Assembly (NCBI GenBank): GCA_012839445.1
Contig: DUNI01000145.1
Span: forward strand, 1-54,796
Length of the DNA: 54,796 bases
Direction of reading: 5' to 3'
Origin: Bacillota bacterium
GTDB taxonomy: Bacteria; Bacillota; DTU030; DUMP01
Of the stretch, positions 5,769 to 30,734 are shown piece by piece. The position numbers were made by a program, and so were the translations under genes. The notes below the pieces were generated by a model that was given only the letters and a program-made list of their open reading frames with translations, searched no databases and was not told the DNA's origin. How positions within the stretch are numbered: position 1 is the first letter of the stretch; every line of letters begins with the position of its first letter.

Positions 5769-7085
5769 ATGGGACTTAGGACTTTTGTAGGCGGGGTGCA
5801 CCCTGCCCCTTCAAAGGGTAGAACAGGGGATAGTCCCGTGGTGACGGCCCCGTTACCGCAGAAAGTAGTAATACCTCTAGCTCAAGGTGGCGCTCCTTGT
5901 GACCCCTTGGTGAAGGTAGGGGATAAGGTGCAGGTGGGGCAAAAGATTGGTGAAAGCCAGGCTTTTGTTTCTGCACCGGTACACGCCAGTATATCAGGTA
6001 ATGTTACTGCTATCGAACCTGTTGCTTGCCCAAATGGCCGTACTAGTTTAGCAGTGGTGATTGAAAGTGACGGCAATGACATCTGGCTAAATACTACTGG
6101 CGGCAGCAGCTTAGATGCTATGTCGCCGGCTGACATTAAGGGGCTGGTTCGAGAAGCAGGGTTGGTGGGCATGGGCGGTGCAATGTTTCCTACCCATGTT
6201 AAGATTTCACCGCCGCCTGGGAAAAGCTTTGACGCCGTCATTATTAATGGAGCCGAGTGCGAGCCTTACCTAACCTGCGACCAGCGTTTGCTGGTGGAAG
6301 AGACGGAAAGCATTGTTCTTGGCTTAAAAGCATGGCTTAAGGTTACCGGAGCAAAAAAAGGCTATATTGGAATTGAAGACAACAAGCGAGAAGCTATTGC
6401 TGCCATCAAGGCAGCTGTGACGGAAGAAAAAGATATTGAAGTTGTGCCGCTTATGACTAAGTTTCCTCAGGGTTCGGAGAAACAACTGATTGCATCTATC
6501 TTAGGACGGGAAGTTCCTTCCGGCGGTTTGCCGGTGGACGCCGGTGCGTTAGTGCAAAACGTCGGCACAACTTATGCTCTGTCTCAAGCTATTACCGCTG
6601 GGAAACCTTTGGTAGAGCGGGTGGTTACGGTAACCGGTACACCCCTTAAGAAGCCCCTGAACATCAGAACGAGAATAGGAACGCTTTTTAGCGATTTATT
6701 GTCTTTCTGTGAGCTGGATGGTGAAATAGGAAAGCTTATTAGCGGTGGTCCTATGATGGGTATAGCCCAAACCAGGGCCGATGTGCCGGTGCTAAAGGGG
6801 ACATCGGGTATTTTGGTATTGTCACCGCAAGAGGCCAGACCATTACCGGAAAGGGCCTGTATTCGCTGTGGACGCTGTGTGGATGCTTGTCCCATAGGAC
6901 TTATTCCTACTTTATTGGATCAATATTGTCGTCACGAAATGTGGGAACAGGCGACTCAGGGCCATGTAGCTGATTGCATTGAGTGTGGATCGTGTGCTTA
7001 TGTCTGTCCATCTAAGCGTCACTTGGTGCCGGCTTTACGGTTAGGAAAAGCAGAAGTTATGGCGCAACGGCGCCGTAAGAAATAG
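5769..7085 (+). CDS. rnfC: Rnf complex subunit C (NADH/ferredoxin-linked, Fe-S)
   Basis: Peripheral subunit of the membrane Rnf complex, which couples ferredoxin oxidation and NAD+ reduction to Na+ or H+ export; RnfC is the NADH-reactive subunit. The 438 residues start with the typical GGVHPAPSKG segment, followed by a Complex I 51-kDa-like NAD/FMN-binding domain (GLVGMGGAMFPTHVK, then NGAECEPYLTCDQRL). An SLBB-like section comes next, then two [4Fe-4S] motifs, CIRCGRCVDACP and CIECGSCAYVCP, near the C-terminus. It is the first gene of the operon and has a GGAGGAG ribosome site. The family usually has this length, and nothing is missing. Confidence 0.95.
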   Translation: MGLRTFVGGVHPAPSKGRTGDSPVVTAPLPQKVVIPLAQGGAPCDPLVKVGDKVQVGQKIGESQAFVSAPVHASISGNVTAIEPVACPNGRTSLAVVIESDGNDIWLNTTGGSSLDAMSPADIKGLVREAGLVGMGGAMFPTHVKISPPPGKSFDAVIINGAECEPYLTCDQRLLVEETESIVLGLKAWLKVTGAKKGYIGIEDNKREAIAAIKAAVTEEKDIEVVPLMTKFPQGSEKQLIASILGREVPSGGLPVDAGALVQNVGTTYALSQAITAGKPLVERVVTVTGTPLKKPLNIRTRIGTLFSDLLSFCELDGEIGKLISGGPMMGIAQTRADVPVLKGTSGILVLSPQEARPLPERACIRCGRCVDACPIGLIPTLLDQYCRHEMWEQATQGHVADCIECGSCAYVCPSKRHLVPALRLGKAEVMAQRRRKK

Positions 7086-22755: not shown

Positions 22756-23133
22756 ATGCTAGAGGCTCGGGGTCAATCCGAAATAGCAGAAGGTAGCACA
22801 CATTGTGACTTGCGCGCCGAGGTGGCGGCGCTGACAGGAATTGGAGAATTGTTCAAGATTCTGTCCGATGATACTCGCAGCAAGCTTCTTTTTGCACTGG
22901 GGCGACGTGAATTATGTGTACGAGAAATGGCACACCTGGTGGGTTTGAGTTTGCCGGCAGTGTCACACCATTTGCGTATTTTGCATCATCAGCGGTTAGT
23001 TAGAAAGAGACGCGCCGGAAAAGAAGTATTTTATTCATTGCGTAACCGTGAAGTAATAGCCATAATTCTAGCGGCTTTGGCCCACGCCCAGGATTTGGGA
23101 CTTGTAGCCTCGCTTGAACCAGCCACTATTTGA
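22756..23133 (+). CDS. ArsR/SmtB family transcriptional regulator
   Basis: A 125-residue winged helix-turn-helix repressor. The DNA-binding part reads ELFKILSDDTRSKLLFAL, then LVGLSLPAVSHHLRILHHQ, and the wing KRRAGKEVFYSL. Metal-sensing members place cysteines in ELCVC(D/E)LA; here the motif is ELCVREMA with a single Cys, plus a second possible ligand in HCDL near the N-terminus, as in CadC-like sensors. The ligand is therefore uncertain. A GGAGGTGAGG ribosome site precedes the ATG. It shares an upstream promoter/operator with the radical SAM gene. Confidence 0.88.
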   Translation: MLEARGQSEIAEGSTHCDLRAEVAALTGIGELFKILSDDTRSKLLFALGRRELCVREMAHLVGLSLPAVSHHLRILHHQRLVRKRRAGKEVFYSLRNREVIAIILAALAHAQDLGLVASLEPATI

Positions 23134-23229
23134 AGATAATAAATGAAATTGAATGGTATCTGGAGGTGAGAGATGTAACCGGTAAGGTAGAATCGGGGAG
23201 TAAAAGATTAGTATAGGAGGAATATATTA

Positions 23230-24618
23230 ATGGCTATTTTTGACAACGGGCCCTTTTCTATGGCACATGTCAAGAAAGCTGCAACAGACTTAGCTCTTGA
23301 TCAAACCCTGAAATACCTGAGCCGGGACCCGGAGCAAAATTTGCCCCGTATCCTGGATTTCGCGGAAAGAATAGCGCCTGATGAGGGACAAAAGAAGAAC
23401 ATAAGGGCATTGAGAACTCGTATGCTAGGCGATGAGAAGATCATGGCCCAAATTAAGCGGCTGGTACACAACCCACGCATGTTGAAAAATTTTCTTAGTA
23501 TATGGGTAGTTAATGCCATGCTCCTAGGCGGGCCGCGTCGCAATGTATTAATGAAGGAACTGGGTATTCACATACCAAGCCTAATATTGGTAGATCCGAC
23601 TTCAGCTTGCAACCTGCGTTGTACTGGTTGCTGGGCTGGAGAATATAAGAAAACTGATCGCCTAGAGCCGGAACTTCTGGATCGGATATTCAACGAAGCT
23701 AAAGAGCTGGGAATTTATTGGGTTGCTCTTTCCGGAGGAGAGCCTTTTGCCTATCCGGAGCTTTTAGATGTGGTAGCTCGCCATCCCGATATGGGATTTA
23801 TGGCATATACCAATGGTACTCTTATTGATGACCAGGTGGCTGACCGATTGGCTAAGGTGGCTAACCTTTCACCTGCTTTTAGCTTGGAGGGTTGGCGTGA
23901 AGAAACGGATGCTCGCCGCGGAGAAGGTGTTTTTGATCAAGTAATGGCCGCCATGGATCGGCTTCGTGAACGCAGCGTTTATTTTGGTACTTCCATCACA
24001 GTCACGCGAAATAATATCGACACCTTGTTCTCAGATGAATTTATGGATTTCTTAGTGGATAAGGGCGCAACTTACGCTTGGAGTTTCCACTATGTACCTA
24101 TAGGCCGTGGACCAGACCTAGACATGATGATAACACCGGAGCAACGGGCTTGGCTGGTGAAACGGGTGGCCGAGATTCGGATGACGAAGCCTATATTATT
24201 GGCTGACTTCTGGAACGATGGCCACTTTACCAGTGGTTGTATTGCTGGGGGTCGTATGTTTTTCCATATTAATGCGGCTGGAATGGTAGAACCATGTGCA
24301 TTTGTGCATTTTGCCACTGATAACATTCGAGACAAGAGTCTAAAAGAAGTCCTGGCATCGCCGCTGTTTACTGCATATCAAAAGCGGCAGCCGTTCAATA
24401 AGAACCATTATGCTCCTTGTCCAATTATCGATGCACCGCAAGCTTTGCGGGATATTGTAGAAGAAACTGGCGCTCAGCCCACTCATGACGGAGCACAAGA
24501 CGTGCTTACCGGAACACAAGCCAGCTTTCTTGACCAACGCTCAAAAAATTGGCTTCAGGTGGCCGATGAGCTGGAAGAACGCTATTTTGGCCAAGCATCG
24601 CAACAGGCGGGCAAGTAA
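23230..24618 (+). CDS. Radical SAM protein with SPASM-like C-terminus
   Basis: 462 residues. The radical SAM cluster motif is CNLRCTGC (Cys127, Cys131, Cys134), within DPTSACNLRCTGCWAGEY, and SGGEP (the SAM-binding GGE) follows. The C-terminal part has cysteines in SGCIAGGR, EPCAF and APCPI, resembling SPASM/twitch domains that hold auxiliary Fe-S clusters in peptide- or cofactor-modifying enzymes. About 110 N-terminal residues form a helical extension. AGGAGG lies ahead of the ATG. No precursor peptide gene was seen nearby, so the substrate is unknown; co-transcription with an ArsR regulator suggests induction by a metal, metalloid or redox signal. Confidence 0.8.
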   Translation: MAIFDNGPFSMAHVKKAATDLALDQTLKYLSRDPEQNLPRILDFAERIAPDEGQKKNIRALRTRMLGDEKIMAQIKRLVHNPRMLKNFLSIWVVNAMLLGGPRRNVLMKELGIHIPSLILVDPTSACNLRCTGCWAGEYKKTDRLEPELLDRIFNEAKELGIYWVALSGGEPFAYPELLDVVARHPDMGFMAYTNGTLIDDQVADRLAKVANLSPAFSLEGWREETDARRGEGVFDQVMAAMDRLRERSVYFGTSITVTRNNIDTLFSDEFMDFLVDKGATYAWSFHYVPIGRGPDLDMMITPEQRAWLVKRVAEIRMTKPILLADFWNDGHFTSGCIAGGRMFFHINAAGMVEPCAFVHFATDNIRDKSLKEVLASPLFTAYQKRQPFNKNHYAPCPIIDAPQALRDIVEETGAQPTHDGAQDVLTGTQASFLDQRSKNWLQVADELEERYFGQASQQAGK

Positions 24619-24635
24619 TTTGATTCTATGAAATG

Positions 24636-24679
24636 GACATTAGATTGCCCGGGTCGGGAGGCCCGGGCAATCTAATGTC
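24636..24679. terminator. Perfect 18-bp hairpin after the radical SAM gene
   Basis: The arms at 24636-24653 and 24662-24679 are perfect complements (core GATTGCCCGGG / CCCGGGCAATC) with an 8-nt loop. The 3' side has A-rich rather than T-rich sequence, so it is not a textbook rho-independent terminator on either strand. It most likely ends or protects the upstream message. Confidence 0.55.
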
Positions 24680-24749
24680 ACAAAAAAAGAAAGAAGGAAA
24701 ATAGCCTCCTGCGGCGAAGGGAAAGAGCGGAAACAAGGAGGCTTAATTT

Positions 24750-25235
24750 ATGATTGATCCTAGTGTCTTCGTGGCTCCGGGAGCCCATATTCTAGGTCAA
24801 GTTAATATTGGAGCTGAATCAAGCATTTGGTTTGGTAGCATTGTGCGAGGAGATGTGGACACCATAACCATTGGGCACGGTTGCAATGTGCAAGATGGTG
24901 CGGTTATTCATGTAAGCCGTGGATTTCCGGTAGTATTAGAAGATTGGGTATCGGTGGCTCATGGTGCCGTCGTACATGGATCATATATAGAAGAGGGGAC
25001 TCTAATTGGTATAGGTGCAATTGTGCTCGATGGGGCTCGCGTTGGGAAAGAAACAGTGGTGGGTGCAGGGAGCTTGGTAGTTGGGGGTACAGTAATTCCA
25101 CCACGAAGTTTGGTATTAGGGCAGCCGGCGCGAGTGGTCAGAGAATTGTCTGATGAAGAAGTAGAATCATTTCGAGAGACAGCTTATAGATACGTGAAGT
25201 ATGCTCAGCGCTACCTAAAAAATGAATGGAAATGA
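24750..25235 (+). CDS. Gamma-class carbonic anhydrase-like hexapeptide-repeat protein
   Basis: A 161-residue left-handed beta-helix protein built of hexapeptide repeats (for example IGAESS, VGAGSL, IPPRSL). Candidate zinc ligands are in IHVSRGF, SVAHGAVVHGS, and the family segment NVQDGAVIH. The C-terminus is a helix (ETAYRYVKYAQRYLK). Gamma-carbonic anhydrases interconvert CO2 and bicarbonate, which would suit a CO2-handling anaerobe, but many homologues (YrdA/PaaY-like) have no proven activity. CAAGGAGG precedes the ATG. Confidence 0.85.
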   Translation: MIDPSVFVAPGAHILGQVNIGAESSIWFGSIVRGDVDTITIGHGCNVQDGAVIHVSRGFPVVLEDWVSVAHGAVVHGSYIEEGTLIGIGAIVLDGARVGKETVVGAGSLVVGGTVIPPRSLVLGQPARVVRELSDEEVESFRETAYRYVKYAQRYLKNEWK

Positions 25236-25245
25236 GGGGGCGAGC

Positions 25246-26043
25246 ATGGACTTTTGGCGAGATAAGGTGGTACTGGTAACCGGTGCTTCTCGGGGCATTG
25301 GTCGGGCATTGACCGATGAGTTGGCTCATTTTGGTGCGAGACTGGTGCTGACTGCACGAGGTGAGAATGAACTAGAGCTTACTGCTAGTCGGATTTCTGC
25401 CATAGGAGCGGAGTGCGTTTTTATGACAGCTGATGTGCAAGATGAAGCAGCGGTTCAGCAGGTGGTACGCTACGGTGTGGAGCGATTAGGCCGGTTAGAT
25501 GTTCTTATCAATAATGCTGGTGTTGGCCTTCGTGGACAGGTAGATACTTTAGAGCCGGCTTTACTTATGGAGGCACTGGCAGTAAATGTTATTGGGCCGT
25601 TAAATTTTATTCGGGCAGCAACACCGCTATTCAAAGAGCAACGAACAGGACTAATAATAAATATTGCTTCGTTGGGCGCTATTCAAGCGGCTCCCAACAT
25701 TGGAGGATACGCTGCTACCAAGGCGGCCTTGGCTAAGTTGGGGGAGGCACTACATCTAGAACTTGAAGAGAACGGTATAAGAGTATGTACTGCCTACCCG
25801 GGATCAGCTCGTACGGAGTTTCGTAATCATGCTCTAGGTACAGCTTACCGGGGGCACGAACCTCGTTTGTCAAGGATTGCTCCGGAGCTGGTAGCCAAAC
25901 AAATTTTACAACAGGCAGCTCAAGGAAAGAGAGAAATATACGTGACCCGTAAAGACCGGTGTTTTGCGTATTTAGCACGTATAGCACCTCGCTTTGCAGA
26001 TTTTTTGGTTGGGCGGGCTTTTCGCCAGACCAAAGGAATATAA
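25246..26043 (+). CDS. Short-chain dehydrogenase/reductase
   Basis: NAD(P)-dependent oxidoreductase of 265 residues. The Rossmann motif TGASRGIGRAL, the NNAGVG stabilising motif, catalytic Ser in NIASLGA and YxxxK in YAATKAALAK are all present, in the classical SDR order; the basic residue after TGAS suggests NADP(H). The ATG at 25246 is chosen for the GAGGGGGCGAG site; it follows the carbonic anhydrase gene by 10 bp. The substrate cannot be predicted; the general form resembles acyl or sterol-type reductases (COG0300). Confidence 0.87.
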   Translation: MDFWRDKVVLVTGASRGIGRALTDELAHFGARLVLTARGENELELTASRISAIGAECVFMTADVQDEAAVQQVVRYGVERLGRLDVLINNAGVGLRGQVDTLEPALLMEALAVNVIGPLNFIRAATPLFKEQRTGLIINIASLGAIQAAPNIGGYAATKAALAKLGEALHLELEENGIRVCTAYPGSARTEFRNHALGTAYRGHEPRLSRIAPELVAKQILQQAAQGKREIYVTRKDRCFAYLARIAPRFADFLVGRAFRQTKGI

Positions 26044-26077
26044 ATCTAAGTGGTAGTTGGGCCAAGGGGGGTAACAG

Positions 26078-26506
26078 ATGCGGATAGTCCCGGTAGAAAC
26101 TCAAGATCTCCCGCAGGTGAAAAAACTTTTGGAAGAAGTTAATCTTTCTTTAGCTGGAATTGAAGAGCATTTTCAGCATTTCCTGAAACTAATGGTAGAT
26201 GGCGAGCTTGTGGCAGTGGCTGGTCTCGAACTTTATAGCACTATAGGTTTGCTTAGGTCGATAGCAGTGATACCGGAATATCGGCACTCAGGGCTAGGAC
26301 GTGGATTAATCCGGGCAATGATTAATAAAGCGCGCGCTTTAGAGCTAACTCACCTGTATCTTCTCACTGAAACAGCAGCAGAGTACTTTAGGCAGTTTGG
26401 TTTTCGCCCTATTGGACGCAGGGATGTTCATCCAGCAATAGAAAAATCAGAGCAGTTTCGCTCCGCTTCCCTTGAAGATGCTGTTTGTATGCACCTTAAG
26501 TTATGA
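26078..26506 (+). CDS. GNAT family N-acetyltransferase
   Basis: 142 residues with the acetyl-CoA-binding segment IAVIPEYRHSGLGRGLIRAM (motif A, R-x-x-G-x-G) and C-terminal FRQFGFRPIGRRD. The overall form resembles the ArsN2-type acetyltransferases found with arsenic-resistance genes; an ArsR-family regulator lies 3 kb upstream, but no arsenic pump or reductase is present, so the substrate remains open. AAGGGGGG precedes the ATG. Confidence 0.8.
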   Translation: MRIVPVETQDLPQVKKLLEEVNLSLAGIEEHFQHFLKLMVDGELVAVAGLELYSTIGLLRSIAVIPEYRHSGLGRGLIRAMINKARALELTHLYLLTETAAEYFRQFGFRPIGRRDVHPAIEKSEQFRSASLEDAVCMHLKL

Positions 26507-26630: not shown

Positions 26631-28484
26631 GTGATTAATCTGCAAGGGGGTTACTTAAGAAAACTACTTCGGGTAAACTTAACGGCAGGTACAATTGAAG
26701 TTGCTGAATTGAGCGAGGATCTGGCTCGTGGGTATATAGGTGGGAGTGGTTTAGGGGCAGCGCTTTTGTTTGCTGAGTCTAAGGCGGATACGCCGCCACT
26801 TTCTCCCGATAACCCGTTGCTTTTTCTTACAGGGCCGCTAACCGGTACACGAGTCTTGGCTTCAGGGCGCTATGCAGTGGTGACAAGGTCACCTCTTACT
26901 GGGATATGGGCTGAAGCTGATGCAGGGGGACAATTTGGATCACAGCTTAAGTGGGCAGGCTTCGATGGTGTTATTTTTACCGGGAAAGCCCCGGAACCGG
27001 TTTACTTATACATTACCAACGGGCGAGCTGAACTCCGGCCTGCCCAGGGAATTTGGGGTCAAGATACTTATGTTACCGATGAGTTAATCCGCGCTGAAAC
27101 CACAGCTGGGGCCAGTGTAGCATGTATTGGTCCGGCAGGTGAGAAGGGCGTGCTGTTTGCTGCCATTATGAGTGAGGGGCGGCATAGTCGTGCTGCTGGA
27201 CGCGCCGGTGTCGGTGCCGTAATGGGATCCAAGAATCTAAAAGCAGTGGCGGTTCATGGTACGGGATCAGTTTCGGTGGCCCGGCCAGATAAGTTGGAGC
27301 AATCACTTCGGGCTCTGGCACCGACCCTGGTGAAAAACAGCCGGGCCCGTAGTCAATATGGTACAGCCGGTGGTTTAATGGGGGCGGAGACGATTGGCGA
27401 TTTCCCCATAAAAAACTGGCAGTTAGGAGTTTGGGTGAAAGGGGCGGCCCGAATTTCTGGACAGGTTATGGCTCAAACGATTCTTACCGGGCGCTATTAT
27501 TGCGATCGCTGTCCAGTGGGGTGTGGCCGTGAGGTGGCTGTAAACACTCCTTGGGGCCAAGTGGTGGGGGCTGGACCTGAGTATGAGACTTTAGGCATGC
27601 TAGGTGGCCTGTGTATGGTGGACGACTTGCCGGCTGTATGTTATGCCAATGATTTATGTAACCGCTTGGGCCTGGATACTATTTCTACCGGTGCAGCGGT
27701 GGCTTTTGCCATGGAGTGCTTTGAGCACGGTTTGTTAAGCACCGGCCATACGGGTGGTCTTGACTTAACTTGGGGGAATGCTGATGCTGTAATTAAGCTA
27801 ATAGGGCAAATAGCTCAGCGGCAGGGCCTAGGTTCCCTGTTAGCCCAGGGTACGGTGAAGGCGGCTGATGAGATCGGCGGGTTGGCCCACGAGTTTACAG
27901 TTCATAGTAAGGGCTTGGAAATGCCGGCGCATGATCCTCGTGCTTACAGCAGTTTGGCTTTGGCCTACGCCACGTCTAATCGCGGTGCCTGCCATTTACA
28001 AGGGTTTACCCATGCACTGGAAGCGTCAGTTACTATGCCGGAGCTTGGATTTCCCGAAATATTGGATCGGTTTTCGACCGATCAAAAAGGGGCTATGACA
28101 GCAGCTATGCAAGACCTGATGTCCCTTTTTGATTCTTTGAAAGTGTGCAAGTTCATGATTTACGGCGGTGTAAAAGTAACTCATTTAGTGGAATGGTTAA
28201 ACCTGGTTACCGATTGGGATTTAGGCCAGAAAGATTTTCTTTTTATCGGCGAGCGCATCTTTAATCTTAAACGATTGTATAATGTCCGCTTAGGTATCAG
28301 CCGTAAAGATGACATACTTTCAGCACGGGTGCTATCAGAGAAAAAAGGCGGAGGCGCTGGTGAGCACCTTCCGCATTTGGGACGTATGTTAAGCAACTAC
28401 TATGATATCCGAGGTTGGGACTCAAATGGAATACCCACGAAGGAGACAATTAGGCGTTTAGACCTTGAGAATTTTGTTGGCTAA
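26631..28484 (+). CDS. Aldehyde:ferredoxin oxidoreductase (tungsten-type)
   Basis: Oxidises aldehydes to carboxylic acids with ferredoxin, or reduces acids in the opposite direction, using a bis-pterin tungsten cofactor and one [4Fe-4S] cluster. 617 residues. The N-terminal AFOR domain has LRVNLTAGTIE, GGSGLGAALLF and RYAVVTRSPLTG. The cluster ligands are CDRCPVGC plus Cys in DSLKVCKF. LGLDTISTGAAVAFAMEC and GLEMPAHDPRAYSSLALAYATSNRGACH are pterin/active-site blocks. The start is uncertain: AAAGGGGTGAT (26625-26635), a near-perfect ribosome site, overlaps the GTG at 26631, so a CTG at 26640 may be used. It works with ferredoxin like Rnf and FdhA in this window. Confidence 0.93.
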   Translation: MINLQGGYLRKLLRVNLTAGTIEVAELSEDLARGYIGGSGLGAALLFAESKADTPPLSPDNPLLFLTGPLTGTRVLASGRYAVVTRSPLTGIWAEADAGGQFGSQLKWAGFDGVIFTGKAPEPVYLYITNGRAELRPAQGIWGQDTYVTDELIRAETTAGASVACIGPAGEKGVLFAAIMSEGRHSRAAGRAGVGAVMGSKNLKAVAVHGTGSVSVARPDKLEQSLRALAPTLVKNSRARSQYGTAGGLMGAETIGDFPIKNWQLGVWVKGAARISGQVMAQTILTGRYYCDRCPVGCGREVAVNTPWGQVVGAGPEYETLGMLGGLCMVDDLPAVCYANDLCNRLGLDTISTGAAVAFAMECFEHGLLSTGHTGGLDLTWGNADAVIKLIGQIAQRQGLGSLLAQGTVKAADEIGGLAHEFTVHSKGLEMPAHDPRAYSSLALAYATSNRGACHLQGFTHALEASVTMPELGFPEILDRFSTDQKGAMTAAMQDLMSLFDSLKVCKFMIYGGVKVTHLVEWLNLVTDWDLGQKDFLFIGERIFNLKRLYNVRLGISRKDDILSARVLSEKKGGGAGEHLPHLGRMLSNYYDIRGWDSNGIPTKETIRRLDLENFVG

Positions 28485-28551: not shown

Positions 28552-29367
28552 ATGCGTGTCGGCCTGGTGGGTGCGGGGCAAGGTGGCAGCCGGGTATTGT
28601 CTGTGTTGCACCGCCTTCCGGAAATTGAGATTGTGGGTGTTGTAGATCGTGATCCGGAGGCGCCTGGTATGAAGCAGGCACTTGAGTTTGGGGTTTCTAC
28701 ATGGGACGATATGTCTATGTTAATTCAGCAGCCAAAATTAGACATGATTATTGAAGTGACAGGTGTGGAAGCAGTGCAAGACACCTTGAGAAAGAGTCTT
28801 CCGCCAGGCTGCCATTTGGTTGATGCTGATGCGGCTCGCCTACTGGTTAGCGTAGCTTTTGCTCAGGGAGCAATGGTAGATCAAGTTAAGAAAACAGCAG
28901 CCCAAATAGCCGGCTTTGCCGAAGAAATTAGCCAGGCACTAGCAGCCTGGCAGGAGAAAGCGCAAGCGGTGGATACTCTTAGCCGAGAAGTGGCAGAGGC
29001 AGGCACACAAGCGGCGGCCGGTGTTGAGAGTACGGCTGGAATACTAGAGTTTATTCGTAAGTTGGCCCGCCAAACTAACATTCTGGGTTTAAATGCCAGC
29101 ATTGAGGCGGCGCGGGCAGGCGAAAGCGGTCGTGGTTTTGCTGTGGTGGCGTCTGAGGTGCGCAAATTAGCTGCCGAAAGTGATGAGTCGGTAGAAAAGG
29201 CGGCTGGAGCTATTGAAGGTTTACAGGAATTTTTGCAAAATGTACGTGCTTCTATGGATGAGACGTTGGTGGCTACGGAAACACAGGTTAGTTTGGCCGA
29301 AAAGATTAGTGGCAGTTTGCAATCTTTAACTGAATCAGGGGCAGAACTGGCACAACTGGAGAACTAG
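28552..29367 (+). CDS. Soluble chemoreceptor-like protein with N-terminal Rossmann domain
   Basis: 271 residues without membrane helix or HAMP domain. Residues 1-105 form an NAD(P)-binding Rossmann fold of the aspartate/homoserine-dehydrogenase type: [12 protein letters not shown] (GxGxxG), [11 protein letters not shown] (acidic residue after beta-2, favouring NAD), [11 protein letters not shown]. Residues about 108-271 form a methyl-accepting chemotaxis signalling hairpin whose tip is [18 protein letters not shown] and [15 protein letters not shown], where CheA and CheW bind. It is not known to be a dehydrogenase; the dinucleotide domain probably acts as a redox or nucleotide sensor. It lies 67 bp after AOR with its own GAGGGGG ribosome site. 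No che genes are in the window. Confidence 0.85.
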
Positions 29368-29885
29368 CTGTAGAGAACGGTGCCAAGTCCAGCTGCCAGC
29401 AGTAGAGTTACAATAGGATCTAGGTGAAACCGTCGAATAGCTATAAATGCTCCTACCGATATGGCCAAGCTAGAGACAGATTGAATTGAGGACGGCATAA
29501 TTCCCCAGGTAGCAGCGGCAATAAGAGCTACTACTGCTGGACGGATGCCGGTGAATGCAGCCTGCACTGTGTCCAGTGTGTTGTATTTTAGAAAGAGAAG
29601 GGTAAGGCTAAGGACTACTATTAGCGATGGTGTTACCACGCCCAGGGTTGCTGCCGCAGAACCGAAAATCCCAGCCATTTTATACCCAACGAAAGTTGCG
29701 GCATTAATAGCGATGGGGCCGGGTGTTACCTGCGAAATAGCTACTACATCGACAAACTGGGACAGATTTAGCCAGCTATTATTGGTTACGATCTCTTTTT
29801 GTATAAGTGGCAGCATAGCATAACCACCGCCGAAGCTAAATAGGCCAATCTTAAAAAAGGTTAGGAAAAGTTGAGTGTAGATCAT
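29364..29885 (-). CDS. Chromate transporter family protein, second half-size subunit
   Basis: 173-residue CHR-family membrane protein with [42 protein letters not shown] and a C-terminal hydrophobic part. Short CHR proteins come in pairs, each half of a full-length ChrA. It overlaps the upstream partner by 4 bp (ATGA), so they are translationally coupled. Chromate or sulfate export is the family label; the natural substrate in an anaerobe is uncertain. Its 3' end meets the chemoreceptor-like gene tail to tail with a 4-bp overlap. Confidence 0.88.
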
Positions 29886-30550
29886 GAGTTACCGCCTCGA
29901 CTTTCGTTGCTGTCTTGGTTGTAACTTGATTGCTGTTGGGAGGATTCATATGAAGGAGCTTGTCTGGAGCTATTTAATACCAGGCCTGTAATTGCTGCCG
30001 CAATGATTACAAATACAGGATGCAGCTGTACCGGAATAAGAAGAACCAGGGCTGCAATGGATAGTAAAGCACCACGCCAGTTTTTGATGGTGTTTTTGCC
30101 AACGTCATAAACCGCTGAAGCCATTAAGGCTACAATGGCAGGACGCATTCCTGTTAGGGCAGCACGGACAAAGCGGTTTTCTTGAATTCCGAGAAAGAAA
30201 GTGGCTACAATAAGCAGGATAAAAAATGAAGGCAAAGTGGCTCCTAACACAGCAGCTAATGTGCCTTGAAGGCCACTTAATTTGTAGCCGGTAATTACAG
30301 CGATGTTCACGGCTATGGGTCCCGGCGAACTTTGCGCTATGGCAATAGCGTCTACAAACTCTTCATCTCGGAGCCACTTTGATTTTGCTACCAGAGATTT
30401 TCGAATAAGGGGTAACATAGCATAGCCACCCCCAAAGGTAAAAGCTCCGATGGACAAAAAAGACCAAAAAAGACGGCCCGGAGTGGGCGCAACGTAAGAT
30501 GATTCAGTAGCAGCGGAGGATTCAATATTGTGGGTGGAAGGTGTTTTCAT
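29882..30550 (-). CDS. Chromate transporter family protein, first half-size subunit
   Basis: 222 residues with the CHR signatures [19 protein letters not shown] and IAQSSPGPIAVNIAVITGYKL, the partner of the 173-residue protein encoded next. It has a longer hydrophilic N-terminus and a Ser/Gln/Asn-rich C-terminal tail (YESSQQQSSYNQDSN). The ATG at 30550 is preferred because GAGGT lies about nine bases before it; a GTG at 30565 is possible. The two half-size proteins are expected to function as a heteromer. Confidence 0.86.
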   Translation of the reverse strand: MKTPSTHNIESSAATESSYVAPTPGRLFWSFLSIGAFTFGGGYAMLPLIRKSLVAKSKWLRDEEFVDAIAIAQSSPGPIAVNIAVITGYKLSGLQGTLAAVLGATLPSFFILLIVATFFLGIQENRFVRAALTGMRPAIVALMASAVYDVGKNTIKNWRGALLSIAALVLLIPVQLHPVFVIIAAAITGLVLNSSRQAPSYESSQQQSSYNQDSNESRGGNS

Positions 30551-30734
30551 ATGCGGATACCTCACACGTCGGATTATTTTCTATTACAGGATATCATAAT
30601 GCGACTATTTCTGCCAATGCCACTGTTGTATGAGCGGAATGGACTACAAGAATTTTGTTTTGTAGATGTTAACAGTGGTTCGTAATATGAGAACCTTTTG
30701 AAGGCTGGATGTATTGGAGAAGGGAGCAGCTTGC

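Follow-up and report, generated by a model that had tools for sequence, protein, structure and literature searches.

A predicted soluble chemoreceptor with a dehydrogenase-type Rossmann input domain, a candidate reader of intracellular redox state

Introduction

Steering by internal metabolic state has mostly been explained through FAD-, heme- or PAS-based receptors, and Rossmann sensors that read NADH are known from the Rex repressors. The stretch of DNA analysed here (the window, 54,796 nucleotides) carries a gene that joins an NAD-type Rossmann domain to the signalling hairpin of a methyl-accepting chemotaxis protein (MCP), and it stands directly after an aldehyde ferredoxin oxidoreductase (AOR) family gene. 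What would such a receptor sense, and does its neighbour give the answer? An earlier note, made from the letters of this DNA, had proposed a cytoplasmic receptor that reads a dinucleotide or a dehydrogenase-type ligand, coupled through the AOR gene to aldehyde or redox metabolism. We denote the protein Rossmann-MCP.

Results

A Rossmann domain joined directly to a chemotaxis hairpin

The Rossmann-MCP reading frame (Table 1) opens with an ATG start preceded by a good ribosome-binding stretch, aaaagagggggaattacATG, 67 bp past the stop of the AOR gene. In Pfam its N-terminus matches NAD_binding_3 (residues 7-93, E=4.9e-8, 34.1 bits, cut-off 24) and GFO_IDH_MocA (residues 1-88, E=8.5e-8, 33.3 bits, cut-off 24), and its C-terminus matches MCPsignal (PF00015, residues 134-267, E=1.5e-26, 93.8 bits, cut-off 34.6). 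No match to HAMP, Cache, PAS or globin domains was found in the protein by Pfam. A membrane helix is not expected either: the highest 19-residue Kyte-Doolittle mean is 1.18, as against 2.2-2.5 in the three other MCPs of the genome, all of which have membrane-type hydrophobic stretches. Lacking both a transmembrane helix and a HAMP domain, Rossmann-MCP classes by its sequence as a soluble (cytoplasmic) chemoreceptor. The same joint between Rossmann domain and hairpin recurs in full-length homologues at 31-60% identity, and a frameshift, a fusion artefact or an assembly artefact can therefore be ruled out. The architecture that the earlier note had described, an NAD-type GxGxxG domain on an MCP hairpin with a CheA/CheW-contact tip and no membrane helix, HAMP or classical sensor domain, is thus confirmed by the Pfam matches, the hydropathy, the homologues and the conservation of the tip (below).

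On the opposite strand, a chromate-transporter-like gene pair (29364-30565 of the window) converges on Rossmann-MCP, the end of the nearer gene overlapping that of the receptor by 4 bp.

Table 1. Features of the Rossmann-MCP locus, in coordinates of the window
Feature	Position	Strand	Basis
GNAT acetyltransferase	26078..26506	+	gene order; Pfam of orthologue in L077
AOR (aldehyde ferredoxin oxidoreductase) family gene, upstream neighbour	26631..28484	+	AFOR_N/AFOR_C
Rossmann-MCP gene, 271 aa plus stop	28552..29367	+	ORF, Pfam domains, full-length homologues
Rossmann input domain (NAD_binding_3 / GFO_IDH_MocA-like), residues 1-91	28552..28824	+	Pfam, AF2 model, fold matches to NAD-dependent dehydrogenases
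GAGQGG dinucleotide-binding loop (predicted), residues 7-12	28570..28587	+	78-sequence alignment
Asp32, just past strand 26-31, expected NAD ribose contact	28645..28647	+	invariant 78/78
Thr70-Gly71 after strand 65-68, expected nucleotide-pocket lip	28759..28764	+	T70 invariant, G71 77/78
Hairpin N-terminal arm, residues 92-170, continuous with last Rossmann helix	28825..29061	+	models' secondary structure; MCPsignal 134-267
Hairpin tip, CheA/CheW contact region, residues 171-202	29062..29157	+	conservation; alignment to 2ch7, 3g6b, 1qu7
Hairpin C-terminal arm; protein ends 80 residues past tip residue E191	29158..29364	+	arm lengths

A short hairpin with an intact tip

The residues of the hairpin tip are common to Rossmann-MCP, its homologues and the solved MCPs 2ch7, 3g6b and 1qu7, and together with the MCPsignal score they place the protein, as far as its sequence tells, in the MCP superfamily PF00015. 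The C-terminal arm is about half as long as that of two resident membrane MCPs, with 80 residues from tip to end versus 154-155; the third resident MCP is not comparable, since it is extended at the C-terminus and has 280 residues past the tip. With the N-terminal arm counted from residue 97, the arms measure 94 and 80 residues here and 101 and 86 in the commonest form of the wider family. The arms of Rossmann-MCP are therefore about one heptad shorter per side than the commonest ones, which fits a loss of coiled-coil layers in pairs.

Methylation sites are typical of MCPs without being universal, and their absence is no bar to membership of PF00015. Rossmann-MCP has no match to the methylation-site consensus [ASTG]xx[EQ][EQ]xx[ASTG] in its 271 residues, as compared with 4 to 6 per protein among the genome's three other MCPs. 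At least one match is present in 45 of 56 Rossmann-MCPs, so that the absence is a trait of this member and not of the family. From the missing consensus and the short C-terminal arm we infer that the usual adaptation probably does not act on this receptor; CheR/CheB adaptation would be weak or none, a conclusion that we do not extend to the whole Rossmann-MCP family.

The genome encodes a chemotaxis pathway

The genome encodes one CheA. A single stretch of contig C229 carries this five-domain kinase (Hpt, P2, H-kinase_dim, HATPase_c, CheW) along with CheW, CheC and CheD, and the same contig encodes a sigma factor of the sigma-70 family and, upstream, proteins of SRP54 and ParA type resembling FlhF and FlhG. 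The chemotaxis and flagellar regulatory genes that the cytoplasmic-receptor reading calls for are thus present in the genome. All 72 domain-bearing genomes tested contain CheA, as compared with 326 of the 398 genomes in the phylum sample (a base rate of 82%, kinship uncorrected); since this statistic ignores kinship, we regard the association of CheA with the Rossmann domain as suggestive. We regard it as very probable that Rossmann-MCP is a soluble receptor acting on CheA/CheW.

In another genome of the same family we observed an unusual coupling protein, a 486-residue frame with three CheW domains located near a second CheA-like frame (G006:C22:15325-16728, reverse strand).

The input domain resembles half of a dehydrogenase

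AlphaFold2 folded residues 1-116 as a Rossmann domain with a pLDDT of 83.6, from an alignment of two sequences (the query and one relative), and so bore out the fold that the earlier note had expected. The order of elements is E2-6, H10-20, E26-31, H38-45, H54-58, E65-68, H73-82, E88-90 and H92-115, and the last helix, from residue 92, runs on to the end of the model; in a full-length single-sequence model of low confidence (pLDDT 68.5) it continues to residue 155.

Acylating acetaldehyde dehydrogenases are the nearest solved relatives in sequence and fold. They were the best matches in a profile search of the PDB with the Rossmann domain (1nvm, E=4.3e-8; Rex 5zz5 came at E=0.0093), and they headed the Foldseek comparison against the PDB (4jn6, 1nvm, 4lrt and 7z3s, the first three at E values of 6e-6 to 2e-5) together with NAD-bound sugar dehydrogenases. 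VIA-align gave the model a Z of 12.8 to NAD-bound GenD2 (rmsd 3.6, 106 aligned), 12.6 and 12.5 to acetaldehyde dehydrogenases, and 10.0 to Rex 3wg9. Rossmann-MCP itself fails as an acylating acetaldehyde dehydrogenase: TIGR03215 scores 27.9 bits against a cut-off of 282, and the C-terminal domain that bears the catalytic Cys is missing. The TIGR03215 match is confined to residues 1-95, which indicates that the sensor consists of a dehydrogenase's nucleotide-binding half and lacks the catalytic one.

A conserved dinucleotide-binding signature

We aligned 78 Rossmann domains, gathered with a profile built from the family itself, which favours motif-keeping members; in this set G7, G9, G12, D32, A43 and T70 are invariant (78/78), G71 and V75 show one change each, and G11 is kept in 75. 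The invariant signature holds under both MCP and sigma-54 outputs (see below), and the dinucleotide-binding residues are therefore not lost in homologues. A dinucleotide site in working order would be expected to retain this pattern.

In Rossmann folds, binding of the NAD ribose is usually signalled by an Asp that follows the second strand. We take the glycine loop to bind the pyrophosphate of the ligand and Asp32 its adenosine ribose, as in the family at large. With profile scores above the cut-off, a GxGxxG loop and an acidic residue after the second strand, the domain can be classed as an NAD(P)-binding Rossmann domain, and its predicted binding of a dinucleotide is likely. Asp32 is the one residue that argues for NAD over NADP; many of the 78 domains have K, R or Q at residue 10, within the GxGxGG loop, so the preference for NAD is not certain.

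Binding a dinucleotide is not necessarily sensing it. The NAD(H) could be bound permanently in a structural role, and the receptor could sense a substrate of the dehydrogenase type, for instance an aldehyde, a dicarboxylate or an amino acid. In the parent enzymes a second substrate always takes part, and the A37-P38-G39 motif and T70-G71 are conserved beyond the minimal Rossmann fold; the substrate-binding half is absent, however, the MCP helix beginning at residue 92 with no known substrate pocket left, and we consider substrate sensing rather unlikely. A second possibility is a pseudo-enzyme, in which the small domain, devoid of its catalytic half, binds no small ligand and serves as a docking or dimerisation platform tying the receptor array to a metabolic enzyme. 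There is a parallel in RtcR, whose CARF domain, a Rossmann-type input of a sigma-54 activator, is reported to bind RtcA/RtcB (PMC9650030). A scaffold would have no need of the glycine loop and Asp32, yet both are kept in 78/78 domains across several outputs, which makes a docking role distinctly improbable.

One input domain, several outputs

Among 398 genomes drawn evenly from the phylum, 117 carry the Rossmann domain, which spans more than 20 families of this one phylum. We classified 80 loci, comprising 56 short Rossmann-MCPs, 7 longer MCPs, 15 PAS/sigma-54 activators and 2 incomplete cases; another 20 loci brought in Rossmann-PAS-HTH_8 proteins, one Rossmann-GAF-PAS-HD-GYP protein, MCPs that are shorter still and domains of about 134 aa that stand alone. 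The output labels cluster strongly on a tree of the domain (4 changes, versus 20.7 when shuffled), and the tree shows at least one interleaving of sigma-54 with MCP forms, with many forks unresolved on 115 columns. This interleaving suggests that the domain has been re-coupled to different outputs.

The sigma-54 forms carry PAS, AAA+ and a Fis-type HTH as output. Fumarase adjoins them in 8 of the 15 loci, succinate dehydrogenase in 6 and MeaB, which is associated with methylmalonyl-CoA mutase, in 4, and these neighbours point to central, redox-linked metabolism. The Rossmann-PAS-sigma-54 activators that lie beside fumarase, and partly beside succinate dehydrogenase and methylmalonyl-CoA genes (L085, L086, L116, L120-L123 and L135), are candidate redox regulators of propionate/C4 metabolism.

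The same neighbours bear on the chief rival to NAD(H) sensing, in which the receptor is as described and its ligand is CoA, an acyl-CoA or another adenine nucleotide, so that it would report acyl-CoA or energy status. The nearest solved relatives are CoA-acylating enzymes that use both NAD and CoA, the sigma-54 proteins with this domain adjoin MeaB (4 loci) and fumarase (8), and Pfam gives Rossmann-MCP a weak CoA_binding match (E=0.056). That match lies far under the cut-off, however, and Asp32, which never varies, sits where Rossmann folds that bind the NAD ribose usually have their Asp. Published models do place CoA where these enzymes bind NAD; they are tempered by a crystal structure with distinct adenine sites, solved for an aldehyde dehydrogenase from a different family (PMC4762007). 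On balance we judge a CoA-type ligand unlikely.

Several other members of the domain family were recorded. L247 (G110:C1:747500-753500) joins the same input domain to GAF-PAS-HD-GYP and is likely a cyclic-di-GMP phosphodiesterase, and L251-L254 encode proteins of about 303-309 aa in which Rossmann and PAS domains are combined with a Fis-type HTH and no AAA+ domain is present. Stand-alone copies of about 124-136 aa with no output, which are possible partner proteins, occur at L240, L241 and L034; the last of these (5989-6360, about 124 aa) is in Azospirillum oryzae and is a copy found outside this phylum. Another locus (L016, 1477-2250, reverse strand, genome G021) encodes a short soluble MCP with a different N-terminal domain, for which Pfam gives only MCPsignal above the cut-off, and it suggests that further soluble sensor types exist.

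Searching the contigs of close relatives with the single Rossmann-MCP protein returned two partial matches only. Among viral contigs the full protein found ordinary MCP matches only and the Rossmann profile found none, and among plasmids the Rossmann domain matched three records weakly, the strongest match lying in an unannotated part of a 2.6 Mb Acetoanaerobium record.

The AOR neighbour is mostly a local coincidence

The proximity of the AOR gene had led the earlier note to suggest coupling to aldehyde or redox metabolism, in which case Rossmann-MCP would be a dedicated sensor of AOR activity or of aldehydes. The two genes are on the same strand, 67 bp apart, and the gap between them has no terminator-like site and promoter-like sites at chance level only; co-transcription is therefore plausible, as a local matter. 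The arrangement also recurs in one other genome, G003 of genus g2, where the AOR is 70% identical. Against this, AOR adjoins Rossmann-MCP in only 2 of the 80 loci, namely in this genome (G000) and in G003, which amounts to 2 of 5 in family f1; three other genomes of the family (G004, G006 and G007) keep the GNAT gene beside Rossmann-MCP and have no AOR at the locus. AOR is moreover multicopy in genomes of the family, with up to 11 matches in G003. The linkage is thus not conserved in other genomes, and we reject AOR as a functional partner in general; its adjacency is mostly coincidental, and a receptor dedicated to it is very improbable.

GNAT and SDR genes are the recurrent neighbours of Rossmann-MCP within its own family, the GNAT gene lying at most two genes upstream in all 5 family-f1 loci. 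Elsewhere the receptor gene sits between spmB and rluB (11 loci, in the order spmB, Rossmann-MCP, rluB) or comes after ParA/ParB-type genes (3 loci). A general intracellular signal accounts for these varied housekeeping contexts better than a product of AOR would.

Further upstream in the window (22756-26506, forward strand), genes for an ArsR-like regulator, a radical SAM protein, a hexapeptide protein, an SDR and the GNAT stand in a row that is largely conserved in the family (L076-L079) and looks like a metabolic or metalloid-related cluster.

Discussion

The analysis describes a dehydrogenase-related Rossmann domain that, in the predicted structure, runs through one continuous helix into a short MCP hairpin with an intact tip, in a genome that has one CheA. 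The cytoplasmic receptor proposed by the earlier note is supported by the signature kept in 78/78 domains and by the che genes of the genome. The best explanation we can offer, which we hold with middling confidence, is that Rossmann-MCP reports a dinucleotide, probably NAD(H), to CheA; redox sensing through NAD(H) itself we regard as a balanced proposition.

In the mechanism that we propose, the dinucleotide, most likely NAD(H), would bind between the GAGQGG loop, Asp32 and Thr70-Gly71. Its occupancy, or the redox form of its nicotinamide, would shift the helix beginning at residue 92, which is continuous with the hairpin, and this movement would pass along the signalling hairpin and change the activity of CheA. 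The outcome would be a redox or energy taxis that is read inside the cell. Without the usual adaptation, Rossmann-MCP could report the absolute metabolic state.

Several known systems share parts of this design. HemAT and YfmS of Bacillus subtilis are soluble receptors (PMC7542364), and Rossmann-MCP is like them in being predicted as cytoplasmic and HAMP-free, with an N-terminal sensor joined directly to the MCP hairpin; its sensor is an NAD-type Rossmann domain with no globin match, unlike the heme globin fold of HemAT. The soluble MCPs TlpT and TlpC of Rhodobacter sphaeroides form CheA/CheW arrays in the cytoplasm (PMC3964821); Rossmann-MCP is predicted to be soluble like them, and they differ from its 271 residues in being 567-580 aa long with other N-termini. 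The closest solved relative in sequence and fold is the N-terminal domain of DmpF/BphJ-type acylating acetaldehyde dehydrogenases (1nvm, 4lrt, 4jn6, 7z3s), but Rossmann-MCP has the MCP hairpin in place of their catalytic domain. By analogy with the redox-sensing Rex repressors, it would read NADH/NAD+ to switch its output; unlike Rex, which has an N-terminal winged helix and acts on transcription, it starts with the Rossmann fold at residue 1 and has no DNA-binding domain. The Rossmann-PAS-sigma-54 activators of the phylum (such as L085, L120 and L135) share its input domain and the same invariant residues, and differ in the output.

In the literature searched, with most subscription journals and preprints outside it, we found no description of Rossmann-MCP, of the combination NAD_binding_3 plus MCPsignal, or of Rossmann sigma-54 regulators. 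A survey of Clostridiales sigma-54 activators names PAS, GAF, ACT, CBS and other input domains, with no Rossmann domain in the portion consulted (PMC6615313). Soluble receptors and NADH-reading Rossmann sensors are thus both known, while their combination in Rossmann-MCP and the reuse of the domain with several outputs are apparently undescribed; in databases, proteins of this kind may carry no more specific name than methyl-accepting chemotaxis protein.

Since sigma-54 activators and an HD-GYP protein carry this domain too, the best view of it is as a metabolic input module of general use. Its spread over more than 20 families and its sigma-54 reuse beside fumarase, succinate dehydrogenase and methylmalonyl-CoA genes suggest such a general role, where Pfam sees a generic oxidoreductase fold only. 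More tentatively, as a possibility that we would not yet favour, the domain could be a widespread and freely recombined NAD(H)-reading module that connects redox state to chemotaxis, to sigma-54-dependent C4/propionate transcription and to cyclic-di-GMP turnover, comparable to Rex without being a repressor.

If the module reading is true, it would provide a direct sensor for energy taxis in anaerobes. At 271 aa and soluble, as predicted, Rossmann-MCP is amenable to purification and testing. A dehydrogenase NAD domain, stripped down and used as a sensor, would, if our reading is true, form a direct link between the central redox cofactor and the motor. Receptors of this type occur in dozens of related bacteria of anaerobic type and may let a cell steer by the redox state of its interior.
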